Shown here: positions 17,443 to 31,319 of the stretch, piece after piece
Layout of the letters: every line of letters begins with the position of its first letter
How positions within the stretch are numbered: position 1 is the first letter of the stretch
Assembly (NCBI GenBank): GCA_034659915.1
Contig: JAYEID010000022.1
Coordinates: forward strand, 1-39,806
DNA from: Patescibacteria group bacterium
GTDB lineage: Bacteria > Patescibacteriota > WWE3 > JAUXAW01 > JAYEID01
DNA: 39,806 nucleotides
Reading direction: 5' to 3'
Notes under the pieces: generated by a model
Databases searched by the model: none
What the model was told of the DNA's origin: nothing
What the model saw: only the letters and a program-made list of their open reading frames with translations
Program-made: the position numbers and the translations under genes

Positions 17443-18111
17443 CTACAAAGTTGTTACTCCAAGTTGTATTAATCGGATTGCTATAATATCTTGTATCGCG
17501 TAGGCCAATCTCCGGGTTAAATCGATCAAGTGGCTGAAATCGTTTTTCTGAAGGGCGTTTTCTTGCTCACCCGTGGTTTGGTTGTTGAGATACTCAAAAA
17601 ATCTTTTATTTTTTTCACTATGCATTAACGGTTGTAAACCTCCGTCTACTTCGTAAATAAGAAAACCATGTTTGAGTACATAGTAGAGAGGGGATAAATT
17701 TTCGTTTGGTTCTACCAAATCTTTGCAGGTTTTGATTATATTATTAATTCCTTTCTCGATTCTTTCCTTTTCCGGTTTTTCTAACTCTGTCGGGAACTGA
17801 ATACCTAAATCTTCCGCTTTGGATATTCTTGCCGTATCTTGTTCTGGATTAAACTTCGTGTTTATAAGCGTGCTCAAGTAATTCTTTCCATCTGCAGCGG
17901 ATTTAGTCGCTTTTAGAAATTTGTAAAGTGTTTCCTGTTGCATAAAGAAGGCTTCTATTGCGAGAAGGTACAGTAGCGCCCTTTCGTTACAGGGTTCCAT
18001 ATCTACTGCCTTATCCCACAGGGCCTCTAACTCTAGTATCCTTGCTTTAGGGGATAATTTAACGTAGCCTTTAAGGAATTCGATTTCTTCCTGTTTAGTA
18101 AAATTGGTCAA
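17443..18111 (-). CDS. Unknown protein coupled to the methyltransferase
   Basis: A 222-residue, mainly helical protein without a recognised domain. Its TTG start at 18111 overlaps the methyltransferase stop (TTGA), and an AAGGGAG ribosome site lies about 7 bases upstream, so it is translationally coupled. Notable segments are LLYLLAIEAFFMQQETLYKFLK, LSPLYYVLKHGFLIYEVDGG and a C-terminal helix DLTRRLAYAIQDIIAIRLIQLG. The strict coupling points to a stoichiometric partner of the methyltransferase or helicase, possibly a specificity, inhibitor or toxin-like subunit (inference). It lies between two direct repeats that both derive from methyltransferase C-termini, so it may be an exchangeable module. 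Confidence 0.65.
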   Translation of the reverse strand: MTNFTKQEEIEFLKGYVKLSPKARILELEALWDKAVDMEPCNERALLYLLAIEAFFMQQETLYKFLKATKSAADGKNYLSTLINTKFNPEQDTARISKAEDLGIQFPTELEKPEKERIEKGINNIIKTCKDLVEPNENLSPLYYVLKHGFLIYEVDGGLQPLMHSEKNKRFFEYLNNQTTGEQENALQKNDFSHLIDLTRRLAYAIQDIIAIRLIQLGVTTL

Positions 18112-21100
18112 TTTGTACTCCCTTCCACAATTCCAATTTCCTCCGGTGTTAGGTTGTAGAGTTTGTAAACTAACTGGTCAATTTGAGTTTCTAAATCTTT
18201 AGTATTTGAGTTGGAGTTTTGTTTTTTCTTTTTGATAATTTTGTCAACCAAAGGTTCAATTTTTTTTGCGGTCTGTCTATCTAATTGTGGCAAGGGAAAA
18301 GGCTCAAGGTATTTTGATGAGAAAGTATAGTACCCCCCTCTAAGAACGTACCCAGTGGTCTTAATAAAGAACCAGAGGAGTTTGGAATTGAGAATCCCTA
18401 ATAATCCAAGATAACTATGTTGGATATTATTCTTCTTGACTAGGCTATAACACTTTGTGTTGTGATAATATTTGCCTTTGGAATCGAAAGACATACTAGT
18501 TCCCAAAGATATTTCCGGTGTTATTATTTTTGGACGTTCTATATCCGTGATACCCTGCTTTCTACTATAGAGAAACCACTCTTTGTTATTATCAAATCGT
18601 CTATTCTCTCTCGCTCGTAGTACTGTTTCGTTTTTTTTCAAGTAGGAATAGCCTAACGGAAATCTTGTTTTTAAAAACTTTTCAGTTACCCCCCTCGTTT
18701 TACCCTTTTCAAAATGATATGGAAAGATAGTATAGTGAGAGGCTTCCAACGGCTTGTATTTGTCGACATCTTTTCCTTTCAAAATAGGTTTTAGTAGTGC
18801 TCTTTCGATTGTCACTCTTGACTGTAATTCCGCAGAAAATCCTGTAGTTTCTTGGTTTTTAACTGTACAGTCTTCCAAGAAGAATACCGATTCTTTACCG
18901 GATGCAATTCCCTGAGAAACTCTGGCGAATACAGCACCTACACTCAAGGGTTGTATATTAATTTTTTTTATTACTTTTATTGCATCTTTCCCTGTGAGTA
19001 TCCAGGCTTCCTTTTTTAGCCATTTATTATCAATAACAGAAAACTGATTCTCCTTCAGATTGTTAAGGGCCTTTCCTATATTTTCAGCTTTAGGTAGAGC
19101 TTCCTTAATCTCTTTGTATTTGATTTCTTCAAAGGGTTTTGGAGAAATCCAAATTAGAGAGGTATAATTTGAAACGTTGAAAACTTGATTGGAACCAAAC
19201 GAAATAAGCTTTTTGACGGAACCTTCTCGAAGTGTAAATTCCCTTAGGCCTCTTCCAAACCGAGAGTTAATCCATTTGTGGGGCATTATGTAGTTTAATA
19301 CACCTTGTCTATTGAGTAGCATAAAACCTTTTTCTGTAAATAATACATATAAATCATAAGAACCAGTCGCTGTTTCATATTTGTTTTTGTATATATCTGT
19401 CAATTCGGGTGTCGATTTTTTAATACCTTGAATTCGCAGGTAAGGTGGGTTACCAATGACAATATCGAACCCACCCCGGTCTTCAAAAACTTCAGAAAAG
19501 TTGATGTGCCAGAGAAAGAATGGTCTAGTGTTGGATTTTTTGAATTCTTTTATCTCTTCCAACTTGTTTTCTTTCCCTTTTTCTTTGAGCGCTGTTTCTA
19601 TCAAGTCCCAGGTTAAATCCTCAATTTGTTTTTTTAGCTTGTCCTTTTCAGATTTGTGTTTTGCTTTGAAGAACTTATTTCTTAGCTCTTGCAATCGGTC
19701 AGTTAATTTTTCCGTTTCTGTTTTTACCACTTCAAATTTTCCTTGTTCTGGTTCGTCCTCACCATCAATATCGAGCTTAACCCCCTCGTACTCACTAAGA
19801 AGACTATTGCCCTGCATGATTTTGTAGTCCAAATTAGGAAGAGCGCGGATATTGTGACGGCTTTCTTCATCTACAATTAGGGAAAGCCAAAGACGGAGTT
19901 TGGCAATTTCTACTGCACCAGGGTCAATATCCACACCGTAAAGGGAGTTTTGGATTGCATGTCGTTTAAATTCGTAGGTAGTGCGGTCTCCATCATCAAT
20001 AAAAGGAGTGAGGGCACGGCGGGCGCTAACAATTTCCTTCATCATACCTACAGGAAAAGCACCGGAACCAACAGCAGGGTCACACACTTTTATCTCTGCT
20101 AACTTTTCGTCAATGAAATCTGCATTTTCCTTAACGAGTTTTGGCATTTTGGAGGTATAGGTTTCCGTTTCTTCGTTCTGCTTTTCCACCTGTTTTTCGT
20201 GCTCTATCAATGATTCTCCGTGTTCCACCAACACGCGAACAGCTTCTTTTAGTTCGTCCTCTTTAACGCTTCCCAATTCTTCGGCAAGTTCCGTTGCCAA
20301 GTAGTTGATTAAGCTTTCTTGGCACATATAGTGAACAATTTCCCGCGGGGTGTAGTAAGTTCCTTTAGATTTTCTATCCTCCACTTCTAACAGATTTTCA
20401 AATACTTTCCCCAACATTTCGGGGTCAATTGCTACTTCCTTTTCTAGAGGCTCGTCTTCTTTAACTGTAAAGTTATAACGGTCAAAGATATCTAAAATCC
20501 CTGTGCCTATATCTCCTTCTTTTGTTTCCTCTTTGTTGGAAAATAACTCGTTGGATAAATTTATATCGGTGTGCACCCAATCATAATCAAAAATAGGGTC
20601 AAACAAACCTCCGTTCAGGAAAGGAATTTTGCAGTTAAAGCGGCTGTAGTAATCATCCGGCCGTTCCACAGCTAGGGCTTCGTAGAAGAGCGGTTCCAAT
20701 ATATCGTTAAAAAAGTTATCGTAATCGGCGAGCTTACCCTCAAATAAACGGCGGAGGAAATCTTTTGGTCCCGTACCCCAATCTGCATCACGGGATACTC
20801 CAAACCAACCCTTCTTTTGTAGAAAGTAAAGGAAAACAATTTGGCCAAGCAACTTTTTGGCGAAATCTACCGTATCTACATTTTTATCTTCAAAGTCTTT
20901 TTTTACCGCCTCATTTTCTTTTGAAACTTTGTCTAAAGCATCTTTAACCTTATGGTAAAGTTTGCGGTATTTTTCAAAGAATTCCTTGGTAACAACTTCA
21001 ATGTCAAAAGCGTCTTCCAAGTCTGTAAGGCTAGGTTTTTCTTCGCTTGTTAGGAGAGGCAGAAGTTGTTTTCTAGCAGTATGTGTATTTTCGTGTTCGC

Positions 21101-21572
21101 CAACCAGAAAAGACCACCGCCTTGCCGGAGTTAGCTCCTTTTTTATTTTAACGTTACCTTCGCTAGTTTGATCCAAATCGTACTCCATTTTAACTAAAGA
21201 AAAACGCCAATCTTCTTGGTTCGGAGCAACGAAAGCAACCACTGCCGCGTCTTTGGCATAACTACGACTGCTGCTAAGGTACCAAGCAACAAAGTTACGT
21301 TGCATTGTCCGCGCTCTTTCTAGTGAAGTTTCTTTTTGCAGTTGTACAATAAGGATATCTAGTTTGTTGCCTTTTGGATCGGGGTACTTACCAACTCTGG
21401 TTAAAGTTTTGATGTATTCCTGATAGGATTTGCGGATAGTGTTTCCGCGATAGGTAAAAGTAGCAGGATCAATGGACTTGAAGAGGTTTTTAATAAAATA
21501 GGTGAATTTCTCCTTTTCAAAGGAGCTGTCGAAGGTTTCTGTTACTAATTGTTTTGCTGATTCTTTTTTCAT
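18108..21572 (-). CDS. Eco57I-type adenine DNA methyltransferase (large, restriction-modification or defence type)
   Basis: A 1154-residue protein. The SAM-binding motif DPAVGSGAFPVGMM lies near residue 497 and the catalytic DIVIGNPPYLRIQG (NPPY, N6-adenine class) near 706. The N-terminal 350 residues resemble the helical and possibly nuclease-like front part of type IIG/PglX-type enzymes (SARTMQRNFVAWYL-like segment, FYFLQKKGW-like segment). KSKGTYYTPREIVHYM introduces the methylase domain. The C-terminal 400 residues carry the target-recognition/TaqI-like end (IFPYHFEKGKTRGV, LGILNSKLLWFFIK, YLEPFPLPQ). It overlaps the helicase gene by 4 bases (ATGA) and the 222-residue gene by 4 bases (TTGA). 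It resembles the large methylase of DISARM class 1 or BREX-like loci, but the other core genes of those systems are missing here. Confidence 0.88.
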   Translation of the reverse strand: MKKESAKQLVTETFDSSFEKEKFTYFIKNLFKSIDPATFTYRGNTIRKSYQEYIKTLTRVGKYPDPKGNKLDILIVQLQKETSLERARTMQRNFVAWYLSSSRSYAKDAAVVAFVAPNQEDWRFSLVKMEYDLDQTSEGNVKIKKELTPARRWSFLVGEHENTHTARKQLLPLLTSEEKPSLTDLEDAFDIEVVTKEFFEKYRKLYHKVKDALDKVSKENEAVKKDFEDKNVDTVDFAKKLLGQIVFLYFLQKKGWFGVSRDADWGTGPKDFLRRLFEGKLADYDNFFNDILEPLFYEALAVERPDDYYSRFNCKIPFLNGGLFDPIFDYDWVHTDINLSNELFSNKEETKEGDIGTGILDIFDRYNFTVKEDEPLEKEVAIDPEMLGKVFENLLEVEDRKSKGTYYTPREIVHYMCQESLINYLATELAEELGSVKEDELKEAVRVLVEHGESLIEHEKQVEKQNEETETYTSKMPKLVKENADFIDEKLAEIKVCDPAVGSGAFPVGMMKEIVSARRALTPFIDDGDRTTYEFKRHAIQNSLYGVDIDPGAVEIAKLRLWLSLIVDEESRHNIRALPNLDYKIMQGNSLLSEYEGVKLDIDGEDEPEQGKFEVVKTETEKLTDRLQELRNKFFKAKHKSEKDKLKKQIEDLTWDLIETALKEKGKENKLEEIKEFKKSNTRPFFLWHINFSEVFEDRGGFDIVIGNPPYLRIQGIKKSTPELTDIYKNKYETATGSYDLYVLFTEKGFMLLNRQGVLNYIMPHKWINSRFGRGLREFTLREGSVKKLISFGSNQVFNVSNYTSLIWISPKPFEEIKYKEIKEALPKAENIGKALNNLKENQFSVIDNKWLKKEAWILTGKDAIKVIKKINIQPLSVGAVFARVSQGIASGKESVFFLEDCTVKNQETTGFSAELQSRVTIERALLKPILKGKDVDKYKPLEASHYTIFPYHFEKGKTRGVTEKFLKTRFPLGYSYLKKNETVLRARENRRFDNNKEWFLYSRKQGITDIERPKIITPEISLGTSMSFDSKGKYYHNTKCYSLVKKNNIQHSYLGLLGILNSKLLWFFIKTTGYVLRGGYYTFSSKYLEPFPLPQLDRQTAKKIEPLVDKIIKKKKQNSNSNTKDLETQIDQLVYKLYNLTPEEIGIVEGSTN

Positions 21573-24500
21573 TCACTACTAACTAAATATTCGGAAAGGA
21601 TTACTTCCCGCGGCCCGGCTGTTTGGGCGCTGCTTTCGGCTAAAGTTTCTTTAAAGAATTCGGGGGCAATGTTTTTTCTTAGCACTGCCAAAAGTTTCAA
21701 AGGATCAATACCACTATTTTTTAGCTCTTCGTCAAGTTCTCTAGCCAATGTTTTTGTGGTCTGTTTGGGCAAGCCGCCTTCTTGCAAAAGACGGACCGTA
21801 TCACGAATGTATTGTTCATCTTCCTCTGTAAAACCTTTGTACTGCTTTATTGGTTTGGAGCTTAGAATTTGCATGACTTTGGTTGCGCTGTCTCTTCCAC
21901 CTTTTTTCTTAGCTAACTCTATTGCTTCTTCTGTTGTCGCAAACCGGAATTCCTCTTTATTCCGAGCTAGGTAGTCATAATAATGCTCACCAACATTTTC
22001 TCGCGGTGTTTTAGGATCAATTTCCAATATATTGGCGGCTTGGAAGAAATCCAATTCTTGGGTTTCTGCTTGGTCTGTTAAATAGAACTTCTCTAAGCGA
22101 CCTTTGCGCATAAAAGATAGAAGTGCGTCTATCTCTCTTGTTTCCATTTTCCTTGCTGTCCTTGCTTTTTTAGGCAACCGCTTTACCTTTTCAAAGAGAT
22201 CGGGGTCATCATCGCGAATATCACGGATTGTTTCTAGATATTTTAATTCGCTTTCCTCTTCTTGGTCTTCACCGGTAATAGTTTCCTTGCGGCTCAACTG
22301 CTCAAATAGGTCGTGGGATTTTATTTCCTCCCCTTCGGTTAACAGGCGCGCATCGTTACCAAGCATCTCAATAAACATTTGGATTTTGTACTCAGCGGCT
22401 TCTTTTAGCTTAATTTCTGTGTTTGCCTGGCTGGTGGGAAAGAAACTGTAAGTATAAATCTTTTCAAACGTTGTATCGACGCGGTTAATGCGCCCGGCCC
22501 TCTGCATTAGGCGGGTGGGGTTCCAAGGAATATCGTAATTTATAACTACATTGGAACGGTGTAGGTTCACACCTTCAGAGAGAACTTCGGTACTGATTAA
22601 AATCCGGTAATTGTCTTTAGGATAGCGGGCACGGGCATCAAAATTTTCAATAACTTTTTCCCGAACACTGGCGCTGGAACCCCCAGTAAAAAGCAGAACT
22701 TTTTCTGGGAATACTTGGCTAAGGTTCTTTTCCAGGTACTCTGCTGTTTCTTTGGATTCCGAGAAGACAATTAGTTTGTTTTCACTAAGCAATTGATTAG
22801 ATTTAAGTAATTCAATAAACTCTTCTAGTTTGGGATCACGGTTTACCTTTCGCCACATGGTTTGGATTTGGTTTAGAATTTCCAAATCTGCTTCCAATTT
22901 TTCTTTTAGAGCCGGGTCAAAATCCTTACTGCTATATCTTTTGGCTTTGTCTTTGTCAATAAGCCTTTGTATTTCTGCATCGTCGTCATTTTCCAGAAGC
23001 TCAAAAATTTTATTGATATATTTTTTGCTAACGTAAACTTCACCATCCTTATAAGCTTCTAAGAATTGCTCATAGGAATAAATAAATCGCTCAAGAGACT
23101 TCCGAAATGCATAGAAACTGCTCTCTAGTCTTTTAATGAGAAGTATTTTCATAAACCGGCCCATGTTTTTTTGACCCTGCTCCTCGAAATCCTTGTCCTC
23201 TCCCTCGTAATAAAGCATTGGCATGTAGCGAGCGTAATTAAATTCTTGAGCAATTAATTCCACGGTTCTACTGAATATTTTGTCCTCTTGACTGTTTAGC
23301 TGGTAGAAGATCTGTTCTGGCTCCGCTACATCCGGAAATTTGAAATTTTGTTTCTCTAAGTCTTCGCCGTAATATTTTTGTACCTCATGACGAGTACGCC
23401 GCACCATTAAATATTTAAGTACTCTTTCCCGAATTTCACGCCCGTTTTGTTGGACAGTATCAATATATTTCTCGTAATCTTCTTTGCGATCCAAACCTTT
23501 AAGGCGACCTTCTAGGCTTGAGAAAAATCTTACCAAATTTGGTGTCCCGGGAATGGTGCTTTTACGTGATTTTTGAAAAAGTTTAATCTGGCTAAGAATA
23601 TCCTGCGGTCTGTTGTTAAGCGGTGTTGCGGTCACAAGAATTACTCTTTTTCCCCGGCAAATCTGAGCTAGATATTCGTAGGTTTGTGTGCTTTCGTTTC
23701 GGAAACGGTGCGATTCGTCAATGAAAACGTTTTTGTATTCACCTGTACCTTTAAGGGCTAGCCTTTCCAGTTTGCCAATTGATTTGAAAGTTGCTGCCTC
23801 GTTGAAATCTTTAAAAACATTTTTCCACGAACCAGGATTTGCTTCTTTTAGAAGTGTTGGAGGCGCTAAAACAAGGTTTCTACCTTCTAGTTGCTGGGCG
23901 AGCATTGCTGCAACATATGTCTTGCCAAGCCCAACAACATCGGCAATAAAAACCCCGCCGTAGGAGTCTAGGATCTTTTTTGCATTCAACACTGCTTGTT
24001 TTTGGTACTCCAGTTTTTTGAAGTCTGGAGGTGTGTACTTAAAGAATAAATCTTCCTGTTGACTAAGATCGCTCTTGAAGTATTCGTAAAGAAACTTTAG
24101 GTAAAGCTCGTAAGGTTTAATTGTATTGTTAAGCCATGTACGTTTTTGTATCGTCTCGACATACTTATCACTTACATCGACAGCGTGTTTCCAAAGCTCC
24201 TCAAATTTATCTTTTGCAAAATTGTAATCACTTGATTTTTTTAGCTCCACATTGAACTCCAAGTTGTCAGCAAAACCACTTTTTGTGAAGTTGCTTGATC
24301 CTGTGATTACCCGCCCCACATCACGATCGCCCTTCTTGAATGTCATTATATAAAGCTTAGCGTGAAGATTTTCTGTTGGGTAGGCTTTAATTTCTAGTTT
24401 GCCCTTCGCTGCCCATTCAATGAATTTACGGACACCTTCTTCTATTTCTGGGTCATCCGGAGATTGCTCCATTTCCTGGGCAAGAAGATTAGAGAAGTGT

Positions 24501-24787
24501 TTTTTGGCTTCGGGATGGGAATATTGAAATTCAAGTTGTGAGGCTTCCTGGATGAGCAGCGCAGTTTCGGGGTTAGTACTAATACCGATGAGAATGCGGA
24601 TCTTTTCTGTGTCTTCCAAGGATTTGTAAATTGCGTGGAACCCGCTAGTATAGAAATACCCAACCAAAACATCAAAAAACTCTGTATCTTTAATGAGGAC
24701 TTTAAATCTTTCTAGCAGATTCCTCTCGCCCTCGTTGGTTATAAATGTTAGGTCTGTGTTTTTACCAGTGTTGGAAGGCTTCGCCAC
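21569..24787 (-). CDS. SNF2-type helicase with N-terminal PLD-like nuclease domain
   Basis: A 1072-residue protein. The N-terminal 200 residues contain a phospholipase-D-like H-x-K motif (ENLHAKLYIM, H142 and K144) followed by GSSN at 163-166, the hallmark of PLD-type nucleases found with helicases. The SNF2 motor follows: Walker A GLGKT (286-290), DESH box (357-360), motif III VTATPLNN, and the C-lobe with STEVLSEGVNLH and QRAGRINRVD. The last 250 residues are helical and charged. The start is GTG 24787 (MAKPSNTGKN). A promoter with TTGTTA and TAAAAT, 17 bases apart, lies just upstream, so the message may be almost leaderless. It is the first gene of the coupled helicase, methyltransferase and 222-residue protein set. 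It most likely translocates on invading DNA, with cleavage by PLD or another member. Confidence 0.88.
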   Translation of the reverse strand: MAKPSNTGKNTDLTFITNEGERNLLERFKVLIKDTEFFDVLVGYFYTSGFHAIYKSLEDTEKIRILIGISTNPETALLIQEASQLEFQYSHPEAKKHFSNLLAQEMEQSPDDPEIEEGVRKFIEWAAKGKLEIKAYPTENLHAKLYIMTFKKGDRDVGRVITGSSNFTKSGFADNLEFNVELKKSSDYNFAKDKFEELWKHAVDVSDKYVETIQKRTWLNNTIKPYELYLKFLYEYFKSDLSQQEDLFFKYTPPDFKKLEYQKQAVLNAKKILDSYGGVFIADVVGLGKTYVAAMLAQQLEGRNLVLAPPTLLKEANPGSWKNVFKDFNEAATFKSIGKLERLALKGTGEYKNVFIDESHRFRNESTQTYEYLAQICRGKRVILVTATPLNNRPQDILSQIKLFQKSRKSTIPGTPNLVRFFSSLEGRLKGLDRKEDYEKYIDTVQQNGREIRERVLKYLMVRRTRHEVQKYYGEDLEKQNFKFPDVAEPEQIFYQLNSQEDKIFSRTVELIAQEFNYARYMPMLYYEGEDKDFEEQGQKNMGRFMKILLIKRLESSFYAFRKSLERFIYSYEQFLEAYKDGEVYVSKKYINKIFELLENDDDAEIQRLIDKDKAKRYSSKDFDPALKEKLEADLEILNQIQTMWRKVNRDPKLEEFIELLKSNQLLSENKLIVFSESKETAEYLEKNLSQVFPEKVLLFTGGSSASVREKVIENFDARARYPKDNYRILISTEVLSEGVNLHRSNVVINYDIPWNPTRLMQRAGRINRVDTTFEKIYTYSFFPTSQANTEIKLKEAAEYKIQMFIEMLGNDARLLTEGEEIKSHDLFEQLSRKETITGEDQEEESELKYLETIRDIRDDDPDLFEKVKRLPKKARTARKMETREIDALLSFMRKGRLEKFYLTDQAETQELDFFQAANILEIDPKTPRENVGEHYYDYLARNKEEFRFATTEEAIELAKKKGGRDSATKVMQILSSKPIKQYKGFTEEDEQYIRDTVRLLQEGGLPKQTTKTLARELDEELKNSGIDPLKLLAVLRKNIAPEFFKETLAESSAQTAGPREVILSEYLVSSE

Positions 24788-25326: not shown

Positions 25327-26628
25327 ATGATCGATAAGACAAATCTTAAAGTTGAATACGTTCCAGCAGAAGAGCTTAACCCGGCTGAGTATAACCCGCG
25401 GCAGTGGGAGGATTCAGCAGTAGCGCACCTTACTGAAAGTATTGAAAGGTTTGGGCTGGTAGATCCATTAATCGTTAACTCCGCACCAAACCGGGAAAAT
25501 GTGGTTATTGGTGGCCACTTTAGGCTTCATATAGCAAAGGAGCTGGATATAAAGGAGGTTCCCGTTGTTTATCTTAATATCCCTGATGTTGAGCGGGAAA
25601 AAGAGCTTAATCTACGTCTTAACAGGAATACCGGAGATTGGGACTTGGAACTTCTAAAGGAATTTGACATTGGCGCTCTTTTGGATGTTGGTTTTGATGA
25701 CGCTGATCTTAGTGATATTTGGGACGACGTTTTGGAAATTGAGGACGATTATTTTGATACGGAAAAAGAGTTGGAAGAGCTTGGGGAACCGGAAACTAAA
25801 CCAGGACAGCTTTTCCAGCTGGGAAAGCACAAACTGTTTTGTGGCGATGCAACTAATGCAAAGCACGTTGCGAAACTCGTTGCAGATAACCAGGTAGATA
25901 TGATTTACAACGACCCGCCATATAACATTTCTCTTGATTATAACAAAGGTATTGGCACCAGCGGTAAATACGGAGGAACCAAAACTAAGGATGATAAAAC
26001 AAGGGAGGAATATACAGAGTTCATTCGCCGGGCATTGCAGAACTCGCTTAGCGTTGCCAAAGAAGATACTCATATCTTTACCTGGTGCGATGAGAATTAC
26101 ATCGGTTTAATTCAGGAGTTATATGCCCAGCTTGGAATAAGCTTGAAAAGAGTATGCCTTTGGATCAAAAATAATCAAAATGTAACTCCGCAAATTGCCT
26201 TTAACAAGGCCTATGAACCTTGTGTTTACGGAACAATTGGTTCACCTTTTCTTTCGGAGAAAATCAGAAACCTGACTGAAGTTCTAAACAAAGAAGTAGG
26301 TTCCGGAAACAGGTTATTGGACGACATTGAGGATTATTTAAATATTTGGCTCACAAAAAGACTACCCGCGCAAGATTACGAGCATCCAACAGAAAAGCCT
26401 CCAACACTACACGAAAAGCCTCCAACACTACACGAAAAGCCTCTCAGGCGTTGTACAAAGCCGGGGGACGTTATCCTGGACCTTTTTGGCGGTTCGGGGT
26501 CAACCCTAATCGCTTGTGAACAACTTAAAAGAACAGCTTATTTGATGGAGATTGAACCAATATTTTGCGATTTGATAATTCGCAGATTTGAAAGGATTTC
26601 TAATGAAAAAGCAAGACTTATCAATTAA
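25327..26628 (+). CDS. ParB-domain DNA methyltransferase (N4/N6, beta class), phage-type
   Basis: A 433-residue modification enzyme. The N-terminal ParB/sulfiredoxin-like domain has NPAEYNPRQW, RFGLVDPLIV and IGGHFRLHIAKE (about 18-75). An N4/N6 methylase follows with DMIYNDPPYN (DPPY at 196-199) and, after a target-recognition insert, the SAM motif DLFGGSGSTLIACE (about 384-397). The order DPPY before FGGSGS is the beta class. Just before the SAM motif, the 7-residue unit PPTLHEK occurs twice (358-371), from a 21-bp tandem duplication. Such ParB-methylase fusions are typical of prophages and usually precede terminase genes, as here. Promoter and attenuator-like terminator lie upstream; the next gene overlaps its end. 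Confidence 0.9.
   Translation: MIDKTNLKVEYVPAEELNPAEYNPRQWEDSAVAHLTESIERFGLVDPLIVNSAPNRENVVIGGHFRLHIAKELDIKEVPVVYLNIPDVEREKELNLRLNRNTGDWDLELLKEFDIGALLDVGFDDADLSDIWDDVLEIEDDYFDTEKELEELGEPETKPGQLFQLGKHKLFCGDATNAKHVAKLVADNQVDMIYNDPPYNISLDYNKGIGTSGKYGGTKTKDDKTREEYTEFIRRALQNSLSVAKEDTHIFTWCDENYIGLIQELYAQLGISLKRVCLWIKNNQNVTPQIAFNKAYEPCVYGTIGSPFLSEKIRNLTEVLNKEVGSGNRLLDDIEDYLNIWLTKRLPAQDYEHPTEKPPTLHEKPPTLHEKPLRRCTKPGDVILDLFGGSGSTLIACEQLKRTAYLMEIEPIFCDLIIRRFERISNEKARLIN
26397..26438. repeat. 21-bp tandem duplication inside the methyltransferase gene
   Basis: Two identical 21-base units, 26397-26417 and 26418-26438 (GCCTCCAACACTACACGAAA then one more A), are followed by a partial third GCCTC. The frame is kept, adding one extra PPTLHEK. 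Confidence 0.85.
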
Positions 26629-27388
26629 AACCGGAGACATTTTTAAACTTGGTGAGCACCGTTTGTTATGCGGGGATGCTTTGGAAGTTGATCAAATAAA
26701 AAAGTTTCTGAAAGGAAAAAAGATTCAATTGATTCTTACCGATCCGCCCTACGGAGTTTCCTATGTAAAAAGCAAAAACGCTATTGGCCGGAAACCTTGT
26801 GTTAGCAGAAAAATTAAGAACGACGCAATAGATACACCGCAAGAATATCAAAACTTTACCAAAAAATGGCTAGAGGCCGCAGTTCCTTACCTAAAAAGAA
26901 AGAACGCTTATTACATTTTTAATTCCGACAAAATGATTTTCTCCTTGCACGACGGCCTTATTGGTGCAGGATTCAAGTTCGGACAACTTCTAATTTGGAT
27001 TAAGAGTCAGCCTGTTATTGGAAGGAAAGATTACCTTCCTCAACACGAGCTAATTGCCTACGGTTGGTACGGAGTGCACAAATTCATGAAATCTAAGGAC
27101 AAAAGTTTGCTTTTCCACCCCAAACCAGCGAAAAGCAAATTGCACCCAACTATGAAACCTGTTTCTTTGCTAAGGCGCTTGATTCTTAACAGCACAGAAA
27201 TTGGTGAGGCTGTGTATGATCCTTTTGGTGGATCAGGCTCAACTTTGATTGCTTGCGAGCATACCGAAAGAAGCTGTTTGATGGTGGAAATGGATCCTGC
27301 TTATTGCGCAACGATTATTAAGCGTTGGGAAAAGTTAACCGGAGCGAAAGCAGAGAAACTAAAGGAGGTAACCAATGATAAAAGATAA
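26603..27388 (+). CDS. Second N4/N6 DNA methyltransferase, beta class
   Basis: A 261-residue methylase without ParB domain. LILTDPPYGVSY places DPPY at 47-50, and DPFGGSGSTLIACEHTERSCLMVEMDPAYC gives the SAM motif and the following strand near the C-terminus. The opening KTGDIFKLGEHRLLCGDA repeats the wording of the upstream protein's linker (PGQLFQLGKHKLFCGDA), so the two methylases are related. I chose ATG 26603 with GAAAGGA about 8 bases upstream over an in-frame TTG at 26588. The gene overlaps the upstream stop by 26 bases and the small terminase start by 14, which suggests coupled translation. Its likely role is protecting packaged or element DNA by modification. Confidence 0.88.
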   Translation: MKKQDLSIKTGDIFKLGEHRLLCGDALEVDQIKKFLKGKKIQLILTDPPYGVSYVKSKNAIGRKPCVSRKIKNDAIDTPQEYQNFTKKWLEAAVPYLKRKNAYYIFNSDKMIFSLHDGLIGAGFKFGQLLIWIKSQPVIGRKDYLPQHELIAYGWYGVHKFMKSKDKSLLFHPKPAKSKLHPTMKPVSLLRRLILNSTEIGEAVYDPFGGSGSTLIACEHTERSCLMVEMDPAYCATIIKRWEKLTGAKAEKLKEVTNDKR

Positions 27389-27812
27389 AGAACTAACAAC
27401 TGTAGAAGCGAGAATTATCAAAAATAAGAAATTGCTTCTAGAGCAACTCAAAAAAACTCCCATAATCCAAGTGGCTACGGAGAAGGTGGGCATTAGCCGG
27501 GCAACTTATTACCGTTGGCGTAAAGAGGACAAGAACTTTGCTGAAGAAGCGGAAGAAGCAAAACGGGAAGGTATTCAGTTGGTAAACGACATGGCGGAGT
27601 CGCAACTTTTGGCTGCAATTCGAGATAGAAATATGACCGCCATAATTTACTGGCTTAAGCATCACCACGTAGATTATTCCACGCGTATTGAAATAGCTGG
27701 AAAAATAAGACACGAACACTACGAATTAACAGCTGAGCAAAAAGACTTAATGAAAAAAGCAATTAGATTAGCATTGCCAGAAGCAGAGGAGGATAACACG
27801 CATGAAAAGTAA
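27375..27812 (+). CDS. Phage terminase small subunit-like protein
   Basis: A 145-residue protein. An N-terminal HTH (IIQVATEKVGISRATYYRWRKED, about 33-55) recognises DNA, followed by a helical middle (AESQLLAAIRDRNMTAIIYWLKHHH) and a charged C-terminus, the usual layout of small terminase subunits of the type found with this kind of TerL. A near-perfect ribosome site (AAAGGAGGT) lies 6 bases before the ATG. It overlaps the methyltransferase end by 14 bases and the large terminase start by 11. The assignment rests on fold wording and position; sequence conservation of TerS proteins is low. Confidence 0.75.
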   Translation: MIKDKELTTVEARIIKNKKLLLEQLKKTPIIQVATEKVGISRATYYRWRKEDKNFAEEAEEAKREGIQLVNDMAESQLLAAIRDRNMTAIIYWLKHHHVDYSTRIEIAGKIRHEHYELTAEQKDLMKKAIRLALPEAEEDNTHEK

Positions 27813-29346
27813 TCCATTAAAAATTACAGAAAAAGAGTTTAAAGAACTAGAAGAGCTAATAGAAAAGGACGCGCAGTTTAGAAAGCAACTAGCTAAGGAA
27901 AGCCATTTTTGGTTTTTCTACACCTACTTTTCTCACTACATTACGTATAAACCTGCGCATTTCCACAAAGAAATGTTTGCACTGACTGAAGATGACGATG
28001 TGCGTTTAGCTGTGATTGTTGCTTTCAGAGGCTCTGGTAAATCAACTATTATGTCCCTCAGTTACCCAATTTGGGCAATATTGGGCAAACAACAGCGTAA
28101 GTATCCGCTCTTGGTTGCACAAACACAGCCGCAAGCTCGACAGCTATTAGGTAATATAAAATCAGAATTTGAAAACAATAAGCTCTTGATTAGCGATTTT
28201 GGACCTTTTGAAGAATTTGCGGACGAATGGCGTTCGGAAACACTAGTGTTACCAAAATACGGAGCTAGAATTTCAGCCATTTCTAGTGGCGAAAATGTGC
28301 GCGGGATTCGGCATAAACAAACTAGACCTGACCTTATTGTTTGTGATGATGTTGAAGACTCTAATTCTGTTAGATTTAGAGAAAATAGAGACAGAACTTA
28401 TAACTGGTTTGTTGGTGACATCATTCCTGCTGGCGACTTAAAAACAAAAATCGTAGTTGTTGGAAATTTACTGCATGAGGATGCGCTAATAAATAGACTT
28501 CAAAGCGATATTGTTAATAACGAGAGGACTGGAGAATTCAAAGCATATCCGCTAGTGGACGCTGGGGGAAAAACTCTTTGGCCGGATAAATTCCAAAACA
28601 AAGATGCAATTGAAAAAGAAAAAGCAGTGGTTGGAGAATCTGCATTGTGGGAAAGAGAATATTTACTGAGAATTGTTCCTACCGCAGATGTGTTAGTGCG
28701 AAGAGACTGGATACGGAAATACAACTCTTTACCAAATAAAAGCGAAGAATTACCTCATTTAGCAATTGCAGCTGTTGATTTGGCTATATCACAAAAAGAC
28801 TCAGCGGATTTTACCGCTATGGTTTCTGCTTATATTTACGGATTTGGTGAGGACATGCGTGTTTACTTATTACCTCATATGGTTAACAAACGGTTACAGT
28901 TTCCGGATACTTGTAAAGAGGTTCAGAACTTGGCAAAGCAGATCCAAATTGGCAGCAGACGGCCATTGATTTTGGTTGAACATGCCGGTTACCAGGAAGC
29001 TTTAACGCATCAGTTAAAATTAAAGGGCTTGCGCGTAGAGGGAAGAAAAGTGGCCGGAAGAGATAAACGAGAACGCTTGTCGCTTGTCACGGACTACATC
29101 CAGTCTGGAAAAGTGCTGTTCCCTAAACGAGGTGCTGATTTGTTGATCCAGCAATTAACTGGTTTTGGGATTGAGCGTCATGATGATCTTGCAGATGCAT
29201 TTTCTATCTTGATGAACAAAATAATTGAATCGGATAGTAATAGCAGTGGGGGCCTAATTATTGGATTACGTAATCCGATTTTTAATCCGAGAGAACTAGG
29301 AGAGGGTCCGGTCGGATTTGGGAATATTAGGGACAAAGTATTCTAA
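27802..29346 (+). CDS. Phage terminase large subunit
   Basis: The packaging motor, 514 residues. Walker A is FRGSGKST (75-82) and Walker B VCDDVE (180-185), with a coupling-like segment VVVGNLLHEDAL. The C-terminal RNase-H-like nuclease keeps AAVDLAIS (D326) and an acidic HDDLADAF near the end. The length is normal and the frame is intact. Ribosome site GGAGG precedes the ATG at 27802. No portal, protease, capsid or tail gene follows; instead a recombinase gene starts 62 bases downstream. So the terminase belongs to a reduced prophage or a satellite-like element that would need structural proteins from elsewhere (inference). Confidence 0.93.
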   Translation: MKSNPLKITEKEFKELEELIEKDAQFRKQLAKESHFWFFYTYFSHYITYKPAHFHKEMFALTEDDDVRLAVIVAFRGSGKSTIMSLSYPIWAILGKQQRKYPLLVAQTQPQARQLLGNIKSEFENNKLLISDFGPFEEFADEWRSETLVLPKYGARISAISSGENVRGIRHKQTRPDLIVCDDVEDSNSVRFRENRDRTYNWFVGDIIPAGDLKTKIVVVGNLLHEDALINRLQSDIVNNERTGEFKAYPLVDAGGKTLWPDKFQNKDAIEKEKAVVGESALWEREYLLRIVPTADVLVRRDWIRKYNSLPNKSEELPHLAIAAVDLAISQKDSADFTAMVSAYIYGFGEDMRVYLLPHMVNKRLQFPDTCKEVQNLAKQIQIGSRRPLILVEHAGYQEALTHQLKLKGLRVEGRKVAGRDKRERLSLVTDYIQSGKVLFPKRGADLLIQQLTGFGIERHDDLADAFSILMNKIIESDSNSSGGLIIGLRNPIFNPRELGEGPVGFGNIRDKVF

Positions 29347-29408
29347 TTTCTCCCAGACTACATAAAGCTCTGGATATTTAGAACCTTAGCGGTATCATTA
29401 CCCCTGCA

Positions 29409-30671
29409 ATGGAAACTGGCGAGCAAAAAGAAGTTGAATATTGCCTCTACGCAAGGAAATCAAGCGAATCCGACGAGCGGCAGGCAATGTCAATAGATTC
29501 TCAAATTAAAGAAATGGGAGAGCTGGCAGAAAAGAATAGCTTGAACGTGAAAGAGATTAGAAGGGAAAGCCACTCGGCAAAAGTTTCCGGGCAGAGGCCT
29601 GTTTTTAACGGGATTCTCGAAGATTTAACAAACAAAACCTTTAATGGTATATTAACTTGGTCACCGGACAGATTGAGCCGAAATGCGGGGGATTTGGGAA
29701 GGTTAGTTGACTTAATGGACGGTGGGGCACTTAGACAGATACGAACATTTTCACAAAGCTTTGGCAACAATCCCAACGAAAAGTTCTTGTTGATGATCCT
29801 CTGTAGTCAAGCAAAGCTGGAAAATGATAATCGTGCCTTGAGCATTAAGAGAGGAATCCGAGCAAAGTGTGAAATGGGTTGGCGGCCGGGCGTAGCACCA
29901 CTCGGCTACTACAACCGATCTTTTGGTGGAGTGAAAGATATTGTTGTGGACCCCGAACGTGCGCCAATTATCAAAGAAATGTTTAAGCGGGTAGCGAAAT
30001 ACGAGCACAGCGGAAGAACTATAAAGAGGTGGCTCGACAAAATTGGATTTACATCTCGCAATGGAAATGAAATCGCGCTTAGCTATGTATATACAATGCT
30101 TAAAAACCCCTTTTACTACGGGGAATTCGAATACGGTGGTAATTGGTATGAAGGAGCACATGAACCTTTAGTTTCAGAAGAGCTATTCGATCAGGTGCAG
30201 GACCAACTGAAAACACCTCGAAAGACAAAATGGGGAAGTAAGAAATTTGCGTTCAAAGGTTTGTTTACTTGTGCTGGGTGTGACGGGGGTGTTATTGGGG
30301 AGGAACAATTTAAGGAGCTTAAGGATGGAACGCTGAACAGACACGTTTATTACCATTGCAGTCGGTCGCGGGATTACGATTGTAAAGAACCCTACATTAA
30401 CGAGAAAGATTTAATAAAAGAACTAATCGACCTTGTTGAATCTTTAGGAAAAGAAAATTTGGAACCAAAAGAAGCTTTACGTGCCAAGTTTTTAGAATAC
30501 AAAAAGATTGCCAACGGGGTTCTAGACAAAGAAGATGCAAATTGCGATATAAGCTTCGCTGATTTTGCAAAATATGTGCTTACCAAAGGCACTCTCCAGG
30601 AAAAACGGAAGCTAGTTAAAGGCCTCAACCTCAATTTAGTCCTCCAGAACCGAAAAATCAAAATTAAATAA
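29409..30671 (+). CDS. Serine recombinase (resolvase/invertase family, site-specific integrase type)
   Basis: A 420-residue recombinase. The catalytic domain begins YCLYARKSSESDERQAMSID with nucleophile S18 (S19 is the alternative). The typical WSPDRLSRNAGD and KLENDNRALSIKRGIRAK helix follow, then the Recombinase domain (WRPGVAPLGYYN, IIKEMFKRVAKYEHSGRTIKRWLDKIGF, YVYTMLKNPFYYGEFEYGG). A zinc-ribbon (FTCAGCDGG with later HC and DC residues) comes next. The C-terminus is short with no long coiled coil. It is the last gene of the phage-like cassette and lies 90 bases from the tRNA-Gln gene, whose duplicated half nearby may mark an integration site. Confidence 0.92.
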   Translation: METGEQKEVEYCLYARKSSESDERQAMSIDSQIKEMGELAEKNSLNVKEIRRESHSAKVSGQRPVFNGILEDLTNKTFNGILTWSPDRLSRNAGDLGRLVDLMDGGALRQIRTFSQSFGNNPNEKFLLMILCSQAKLENDNRALSIKRGIRAKCEMGWRPGVAPLGYYNRSFGGVKDIVVDPERAPIIKEMFKRVAKYEHSGRTIKRWLDKIGFTSRNGNEIALSYVYTMLKNPFYYGEFEYGGNWYEGAHEPLVSEELFDQVQDQLKTPRKTKWGSKKFAFKGLFTCAGCDGGVIGEEQFKELKDGTLNRHVYYHCSRSRDYDCKEPYINEKDLIKELIDLVESLGKENLEPKEALRAKFLEYKKIANGVLDKEDANCDISFADFAKYVLTKGTLQEKRKLVKGLNLNLVLQNRKIKIK

Positions 30672-30715
30672 GAAGTTAATAAGATAACAAAGGGGTTTCT
30701 TTGGTTCGGGGTGCT

Positions 30716-30753
30716 CAATCCTCATGGGGAGGATTGGTCTTTCGGCGCGAAAG
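30716..30753. other. Two hairpins between recombinase and tRNA-Gln
   Basis: CAATCCTC (30716-30723) pairs with GAGGATTG (30729-30736), and CTTTCG (30739-30744) with CGAAAG (30748-30753) around a 3-base loop. They lie just 3' of the tRNA on the minus strand and just after the recombinase on the plus strand. Without a T-tract, termination is uncertain; they may help tRNA 3' processing or belong to an attachment site. Confidence 0.4.
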
Positions 30754-30760
30754 CACAGGA

Positions 30761-30834
30761 TGGTTGCGGGGCGTGGATTTGAACCACGATCGACGGCTTC
30801 AGAGGCCGCTGTCCTACCGTTAGACGACCCCGCA
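30761..30834 (-). tRNA. tRNA-Gln (anticodon CTG), CCA encoded
   Basis: Folding by eye gives a complete cloverleaf on the minus strand: acceptor TGCGGGG/CCCCGCA (7 pairs, with the U1-A72 pair typical of tRNA-Gln), D-arm GTCT...GGAC, anticodon stem GCGGC/GCCGT around the loop CTCTGAA (anticodon CTG), a 4-base variable loop, T-arm CGTGG TTCAAAT CCACG, discriminator A and an encoded CCA (30761-30763). It reads CAG codons. Its first base directly follows the stop codon of the GIY-YIG gene. Confidence 0.93.
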
Positions 30835-31089
30835 TTATGATTTCAAGGTCTCTCTTAAAATTAATCTCAAACCCTTTCTCCCTTTAGTTGTTTTTAGATA
30901 TTGCTCTCGTCTTCTAGCATCTTTTTCCGATACAAACATCTCAGCGTATATTAATTTTAATTTTTCAAGATTATATCTTTTTGTGGTATGAACTTTTCCC
31001 CGTTTGTGATCTTTAAGACGTTGTTCCAAATCTGCAGTAAAACCAATATAAAACTTTTGCTTGTCGTAAAGAACATAAACGTAGAACAT
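30835..31089 (-). CDS. Single-domain GIY-YIG nuclease
   Basis: An 84-residue GIY-YIG domain: MFYVYVLYDKQKFYIGFTAD holds the (Y)VY...YIG core, followed by the arginine helix DLEQRLKDHKRG, then KLIYAEMF with the metal-binding Glu region, DARRREQYLKTTKGRKGLR and a short tail. This stand-alone UPF0213/YhbQ-like form is very common in Patescibacteria genomes; its cellular task is not settled. The TAA stop (30835-30837) touches the first base of tRNA-Gln at 30834, and two perfect hairpins plus a duplicated tRNA half lie upstream. This raises the possibility that the gene is a mobile, homing-type unit in the tRNA locus. Confidence 0.9.
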   Translation of the reverse strand: MFYVYVLYDKQKFYIGFTADLEQRLKDHKRGKVHTTKRYNLEKLKLIYAEMFVSEKDARRREQYLKTTKGRKGLRLILRETLKS

Positions 31090-31108
31090 AACTTGGTTAA
31101 GAGAGCTT

Positions 31109-31143
31109 CAGTCCAGAACCAGAATAAATTCGGTTCTGGACTG
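31109..31143. repeat. Perfect hairpin A (12-bp stem) upstream of the GIY-YIG gene
   Basis: CAGTCCAGAACC (31109-31120) is the exact inverse of GGTTCTGGACTG (31132-31143). Inside, GAAT and ATTC pair around AA, leaving one bulged A. It shares its last three bases (CTG) with hairpin B. Confidence 0.8.
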
Positions 31144-31176
31144 CCCAGTACCGATCTTTGATCTGGTACTGGGCAG
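31141..31176. repeat. Perfect hairpin B (12-bp stem) next to the tRNA half
   Basis: CTGCCCAGTACC (31141-31152) is the exact inverse of GGTACTGGGCAG (31165-31176), with inner GATC/GATC around TTT and one bulged T. Its layout (12-bp stem, single-base bulge, 4-bp inner stem) copies hairpin A. Its right end overlaps the CTG anticodon of the tRNA half. Confidence 0.8.
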
Positions 31177-31208
31177 AGGCCGCTGTCCTACCATTAGACG
31201 ACCCAGCA
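31174..31208 (-). pseudogene. Duplicated 5' half of tRNA-Gln (CTG)
   Basis: On the minus strand these 35 bases match tRNA-Gln positions 1-36 at 33 of 35 positions: TGCTGGGTC instead of TGCGGGGTC, and TAATGG instead of TAACGG. The match stops exactly after the anticodon CTG. The next four tRNA bases AAGC reappear at 31108-31105 after the two hairpins (65 bases removed). There is no 3' half, so it is not a working tRNA gene. Confidence 0.85.
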
Positions 31209-31319
31209 ACGTATAATAATTATAACGTATTTAGGCGCTTTTGTGGAGTTTTTTGTTTTTCAAAACATAACTTTTCTTGACTTCTTTTCTTTTCTGTGCA
31301 ACTATTTTTACAGTTATCT

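Follow-up and report, generated by a model that had tools for sequence, protein, structure and literature searches.

Mobile ORFs of the Allomyces atp6 type, known from fungal mitochondria, insert in a gene and bring with them a replacement for part of it. The locus analysed here is organized along similar lines, with an endonuclease ORF in an essential gene, a duplicated part that keeps the gene intact, and a displaced part that persists as a remnant, but it differs in being bacterial, in concerning tRNA genes, in its double hairpins and 84-aa Slx1-like GIY-YIG protein, and in that the duplicated part looks local. A second parallel is offered by RAYTs, which are Y1 transposases: as in RAYT/REPIN systems, paired palindromes accompany a nuclease-type gene and also stand alone elsewhere, although here the protein is of the GIY-YIG type instead of a Y1 transposase and a tRNA duplication is involved. 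The double-hairpin elements and GC clusters of mitochondria have, to our knowledge, no gene of their own. Double-hairpin elements are found in fungal mitochondrial DNA (PMC10085805, PMC4618339), yeast mitochondrial GC clusters show a 2-nt AG duplication (PMC4478555), and the agent of double-hairpin mobility in mitochondria is still debated (PMC4478555). The present unit shares with these elements its adjacent palindromes, its 2-nt target duplication (as in GC clusters) and its scattered mobile distribution, yet it is bacterial and not non-coding organelle DNA, has a GIY-YIG gene attached, and targets tRNA genes. rRNA insertion sequences with LAGLIDADG or GIY-YIG ORFs have been described in CPR bacteria (PMC11270868). 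They have in common with our unit the host group, a location at the tops or bases of stem-loops of structured RNA genes, and a GIY-YIG protein that is sometimes encoded, but they are introns or insertions inside rRNA, and tRNA is absent from the main text of that paper. Unlike tRNA-targeted integrative elements of the integrase/att type, the unit has no integrase gene within its tRNA repeats. We think it likely that the locus contains a minimal mobile hairpin/GIY-YIG element, ~340 bp in size and composed of a double hairpin and one Slx1/UPF0213-like GIY-YIG gene, which entered tRNA-Gln(CTG) with local duplication of the tRNA 5′ part and survival of an intact tRNA.

The window, by which we mean the whole stretch of DNA analysed, is the 39,806-nt contig JAYEID010000022.1 (GCA_034659915.1) of a Patescibacteria group bacterium of WWE3; the locus lies at 30761-31208 and is read on the (-) strand. 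In that direction it comprises a promoter-like site, a tRNA-Gln 5′ half, two hairpins, a GIY-YIG gene and a complete tRNA-Gln(CTG). The promoter-like site, TCCACA-17-TATAAT (31219-31247, (-)), has 10 of 12 consensus matches, with its TATAAT ~10 nt upstream of the broken half. One such site was found and 1.7 were expected by chance, so that the match is weak evidence alone and merely consistent with a native tRNA-Gln promoter that presumably stayed with the broken copy. The broken copy itself (31174-31208, (-)) is a 35-nt 5′ half that ends after the CTG anticodon and is identical at 33 of 35 positions to its counterpart in the intact gene (30800-30834). Hairpin 1, TG CCCAGTACC...GGTACTGGG CA, is located within the anticodon loop (31142-31175, (-)) and is followed by hairpin 2, CA GTCCAGAACC...GGTTCTGGAC TG (31109-31143, (-)); both hairpins with their flanks fold at -54 kcal/mol (z=-5.3), a value equalled by 0 of 200 shuffles. 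Past the hairpins the broken tRNA resumes as the duplicated TG and continues for 4 nt, AAGC (31105-31110, (-)). The GIY-YIG nuclease gene (30835-31089, (-)) encodes 84 aa and matches PF01541 at E=7.3e-16, and the complete tRNA-Gln(CTG) (30761-30834, (-)) has its first base directly after the stop codon. The repeat, the coordinates, the PF01541 match and the fold confirm the order that a preliminary description of this DNA had reported: a tRNA-Gln half (33/35) ending after CTG, hairpins, a GIY-YIG gene, and an intact tRNA flush against it.

The GIY-YIG gene is the only gene inside the unit, which contains no Y1 (HUH) transposase; there is no recombinase between the tRNA repeats, and a serine recombinase lies outside the unit. 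No tRNA-Gln(CTG) gene other than the intact copy was found in the genome (806 kb), whose second tRNA-Gln is TTG, on contig C13. A prophage or hybrid model for the locus would need a displaced tRNA 3′ half; none with the matching acceptor ACCCAGCA was found in the window or the whole genome.

The encoded protein has a homing-type nuclease domain with its conserved core residues, as judged by the PF01541 match, the fold, and a GIY-YIG core common to six homologues in which G16, R24, H28 and E62 are invariant. Its nearest sequences are 1zg2 and 1ywl. In an AlphaFold model (pLDDT 82.5), the best structural match is UPF0213 (1zg2) and the next are Slx1 structures (6seh, 4xlg), which makes the UPF0213 and Slx1 proteins its closest relatives in both sequence and fold. 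Slx1 acts with Slx4 and cuts branched DNA, and by inference from this activity it is plausible that the GIY-YIG protein recognizes a hairpin or cruciform.

To place the locus in a wider setting we used relatives selected on protein similarity alone, without regard to tRNA proximity. The window protein was matched in 151 of 380 genomes of the phylum, and 108 homologous GIY-YIG ORFs, mostly from Patescibacteria, were collected; these are ORF records and not strictly independent events, as a few loci overlap or are duplicated (e.g., L105 and L186). Of the 108 ORFs, 40 have a tRNA no more than 300 bp upstream and 41 have one at that distance downstream, on the same strand in 81/81 cases, where an estimate based on ~45 tRNA genes per 0.9-Mb genome predicts ~1 neighbour per side by chance. 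About one third of the ORFs have no close tRNA, and none was seen at the seven UvrC-type GIY-YIG loci (L115-L121). When the downstream tRNA was aligned, with one insertion allowed, to the region before the GIY-YIG gene at 43 loci, a fragment of the same tRNA was recovered at 26, each scoring above all 172 controls that used a mismatched tRNA of another amino acid (0/172). The usual layout consists of a leader and tRNA 5′ part with one or two hairpins within it, 5-19 nt of resuming tRNA, a short leader in which a TATAAT-like box is often present, the GIY-YIG ORF, and an intact tRNA located at -48 to +22 nt from the stop codon in most loci, some ORFs overrunning the tRNA. The search that had been suggested for other half/hairpin/GIY-YIG/intact-tRNA arrangements in Patescibacteria has thus yielded tens of loci in many isoacceptors, and the preliminary description, largely right in its reading, understated the scale.

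Two adjacent palindromes and a short target duplication are features of the window unit and recur within the family. Folding gave z<-2 in 23 of 26 inserts, and in all ten double-hairpin inserts that share a pyrimidine-purine (YR) dinucleotide, each end bears a copy of the dinucleotide and the hairpins are separated by its complement (TG-CA-TG, CA-TG-CA, TA-TA-TA or CG-CG-CG). A 2-nt staggered cut is known for several GIY-YIG enzymes, and cleavage of this kind would fit the 2-nt duplication, although this is an inference. For five tRNA-Gln elements, drawn from both Patescibacteria and Omnitrophota, 93% of hairpin cells are paired and 10 pairs have changed on both sides, compared with at most 50% paired and at most two such pairs in a slid control for the same hairpins. 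The 26 insertion sites fall in the D-arm (16), the anticodon loop (5) and the T-loop (5). Unpaired tRNA positions are hit in 22 of 26 cases against 17.8 expected; since this strict loop-versus-stem test was only weakly significant (P=0.04), we state loop targeting with caution. At one locus (L184) three tandem copies of a single hairpin unit precede the GIY-YIG gene, inserted in a tRNA-Pro fragment at its D-loop.

Evidence for movement comes from comparisons within and between lineages. A DNA search of relatives identified hairpins 93% identical to those of the window over 72 nt in a genome of another family of the same phylum (G056), where they are flanked by a decayed tRNA-Gln(CTG) 5′ part and an intact tRNA-Gln(CTG) and are followed by the final third of a GIY-YIG gene; the hairpins of the two genomes agree at 60 of 65 positions, the tRNA-Gln genes at only 61 of 74. 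In Omnitrophota, two loci (L072 and L073) encode full GIY-YIG relatives (67% and 58%). An intact tRNA-Gln(CTG) directly follows each gene, and a tRNA 5′ copy interrupted by hairpins comes before it; the intact tRNA of L073 contains two unread bases and was recognized by eye and not by ARAGORN. These proteins are the closest relatives of that of the window and form with it a clade (SH-aLRT 96) that spans two phyla and is found in tRNA-Gln(CTG) throughout. Over a tree of 61 GIY-YIG proteins the insertion-site class changes 14 times, compared with 27.3 after shuffling (0/200 as low), with the caveats that the alignment has few columns, that site classes were assigned by the author, and that near relatives add to the clustering. 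No phage relative was found by a pattern search of IMG/VR or in 50,697 phage records.

Within genus g180, one genome (G240) has elements at tRNA-Met and tRNA-Asp, a second (G309) has only the Asp element, with a broken GIY-YIG frame, and lacks the Met element, and two others (G316 and G324) have a single intact tRNA at both sites; the spacer before tRNA-Asp measures ~55-125 nt in the empty genomes instead of ~555. The prediction that empty sites with a single intact tRNA should exist is therefore met in congeners of a filled genome. It is not met at the locus in the window itself, where there was no close relative of the species to compare and a search by trxB synteny found trxB in relatives with no tRNA nearby; the present/absent polymorphism is demonstrated only for the Met and Asp sites of g180. 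Together with the recurrence of the arrangement, these filled and empty sites support the earlier proposal that a GIY-YIG unit was inserted in the tRNA gene and that an intact tRNA was restored. That proposal had left undecided whether the 5′ half was carried in or copied. Broken copies are on average 96% identical to their own intact tRNA, whereas their best matches among same-isotype tRNAs of other loci average 78%, and the own copy is better in 18 of 20. From this preference for the own locus we infer that the tRNA part is duplicated locally while the hairpins and the GIY-YIG gene travel. Import of the 5′ half is not supported, and an element carrying a foreign tRNA part of its own was rejected for most loci, the broken copy being nearest to its own intact copy. 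At the level of sequence, comparison establishes that the unit is discrete, that it recurs in many tRNA genes, that it is present or absent among congeners, and that its site class follows GIY-YIG phylogeny. Mobility and choice of target have their support from comparisons of this kind.

How such a unit might move can be outlined only by inference. We suppose that the GIY-YIG protein most likely picks a tRNA gene and cuts it where the structure is looped, and that the hairpins would enter at a pyrimidine-purine step, here in the anticodon loop, duplicating 2 bp of the target. Host repair or copying would then insert the hairpins and the gene and duplicate the resident tRNA 5′ part locally, leaving a broken 5′ part, hairpins, the GIY-YIG gene and an intact tRNA, so that a functional tRNA is kept. 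The intact tRNA would have to be reached by read-through from a promoter upstream of the broken half, or from that of the nuclease gene. As the tRNA gene is essential, only events that spare an intact tRNA would survive. Inference alone supports cleavage of DNA by the protein with a 2-nt stagger, the repair or copying route, and selection for an intact tRNA, as well as homing in the strict sense of cleavage followed by gene conversion. Several points count against the model, among them the weak significance of the preference for unpaired positions, the lack of an empty site for the window's own species, and the third or so of the ORFs that have no tRNA close to them. The intact tRNA beside the element still holds the presumed target, which insertion neither destroys nor masks, and a classical homing nuclease should cut it unless its specificity lies elsewhere. 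The position of the GIY-YIG gene, after a few bases of resumed tRNA, is also left unexplained.

A passive route, in which REP-like hairpins are moved by another agent, tRNAs are tandemly duplicated and the GIY-YIG gene is a hitch-hiking house-keeping gene, appears unlikely to us. It draws some support from hairpins that occur without GIY-YIG beside tRNAs, as in the tRNA-Thr 5′ half with a 66-nt hairpin region in the same genome, and alone elsewhere, but it does not account for the constant position and strand of the GIY-YIG gene, which across tens of loci mostly lies between -48 and +22 nt from the intact tRNA, nor for an insertion-site class that tracks the GIY-YIG tree. GIY-YIG presence moreover varies among congeners together with the broken tRNA, and the UvrC GIY-YIG loci L115-L121 lack a tRNA. 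Simple decay of a tandem tRNA, named at the outset as a possible refutation, likewise fails in view of the hairpins within tRNA arms, the 96% mean identity and the constant GIY-YIG gene in between. It would be very surprising if the arrangement were instead a leader or decoy RNA, with the hairpin-interrupted tRNA fragment serving GIY-YIG expression or tRNA surveillance and kept for its benefit to the host: the hairpin structures are conserved with paired changes and the strict same-strand arrangement suggests co-transcription, but the scattered distribution, empty sites and truncated remnant look selfish, and the cut position varies among broken copies.

We see hardly any room for a prophage attachment scar, a reading under which phage integration at tRNA-Gln by the serine recombinase (29409-30671) would have left the half behind as an att remnant. 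Genes for a large serine recombinase and for terminase do directly adjoin the tRNA 3′ side; the tRNA repeat, however, encloses hairpins and GIY-YIG only and no phage, the same hairpin/GIY-YIG unit is present in G056, where no recombinase was noted among the ORFs read in a 9-kb flank, and in L072, two cases in which the unit appears without the phage, and no relative was found in the 50,697 phage records. Equally improbable is a group I intron, now decayed, that once occupied the anticodon loop and encoded a homing endonuclease. Patescibacteria do provide one example of a group I intron near a GIY-YIG gene, at a tRNA-Asn (L131; RF00028, 53.7 bits), where it lies between the tRNA halves (1927-2201, (-)) with the GIY-YIG gene downstream, but no RF00028 match was obtained in 30600-31300 of the window, even at E<=10; the insertions are short paired hairpins that occupy D-, anticodon and T-arms without distinction, and instead of splicing there is a second, intact copy of the tRNA. 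A mobile hairpin/GIY-YIG element remains our preferred reading of the locus.

The suggestion had been that this may be a previously undescribed minimal homing element. In the open-access literature on GIY-YIG, tRNA, CPR, REPIN and UPF0213 topics we found no published description of a tRNA-gene hairpin/GIY-YIG element, nor, in the same literature, one of a tRNA-gene element for UPF0213 or Slx1 proteins, but the unit is not an isolated element, since it is one member of a large family. It is quite possible, although somewhat less likely than not, that the family constitutes an undescribed class of bacterial mobile element in which one small Slx1-like GIY-YIG nuclease mobilizes double hairpins into tRNA genes, with local partial tRNA duplication sparing the host; by its hairpin/2-nt target signature it would then be a bacterial counterpart, enzyme included, of the orphan mitochondrial double-hairpin elements. 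In Patescibacteria, small GIY-YIG genes are frequent (the 151 of 380 genomes above) and mostly unexplained, and tRNA-invading elements would give many of them a role; one class of sequences in these genomes, comprising tRNA fragments and REP-like hairpins, would likewise be accounted for. The family would further yield a very compact nuclease able to select sites in tRNA genes and, for double-hairpin mobility, an enzyme candidate open to testing.

Variants of the arrangement were also encountered. The 40 ORFs that lie 3′ of an intact tRNA present a mirror image, in which a hairpin often begins at the CCA end, and in 5 of the 40 (L109, L110, L130, L142 and, with 10 nt, L182) a copy of the tRNA 3′ end (10-18 nt) follows the GIY-YIG gene; a 15-nt T-arm match in L133 was left out of this count. 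GIY-YIG genes of the same family are situated just downstream of tmRNA at two loci (L164, 1900-2303, (-); L170, 1855-2225, (-)), which suggests tmRNA, through its tRNA-like end, as another target. In the window's own genome (contig C10; L086, 2782-2955), a tRNA-Thr(TGT) 5′ half ending in the anticodon and the 66-nt hairpin region precede an intact tRNA without any GIY-YIG gene, and a similar, more divergent tRNA-Trp arrangement, also lacking GIY-YIG, is seen in L004 (~1380-1562); both are possibly non-autonomous versions. In genome G240, tRNA-Met(2) is preceded by a 5′ copy that hairpins interrupt and that lacks GIY-YIG, and is followed by a copy of its 3′ half (L149, 1000-1260), a case of layered insertions at one tRNA cluster. 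Contig C1 of the window's genome has two degenerate tRNA-like genes with incomplete anticodons (L091, 3709-4164).

The surroundings of the locus deserve brief comment. Positions 25327-30671 of the window hold phage-like genes (ParB/methyltransferases, small and large terminase subunits) and end in the large serine recombinase, whose 3′ end is 90 bp from the tRNA-Gln 3′ end; this region is possibly a prophage or island integrated at the same tRNA-Gln, the contig ending before the other border. Near these genes, at 18108-24787, is a large restriction-modification-like pair: an Eco57I-type methylase of 1154 aa, with a TaqI-like specificity domain, and a 1072-aa PLD/helicase protein similar to NgoFVII.
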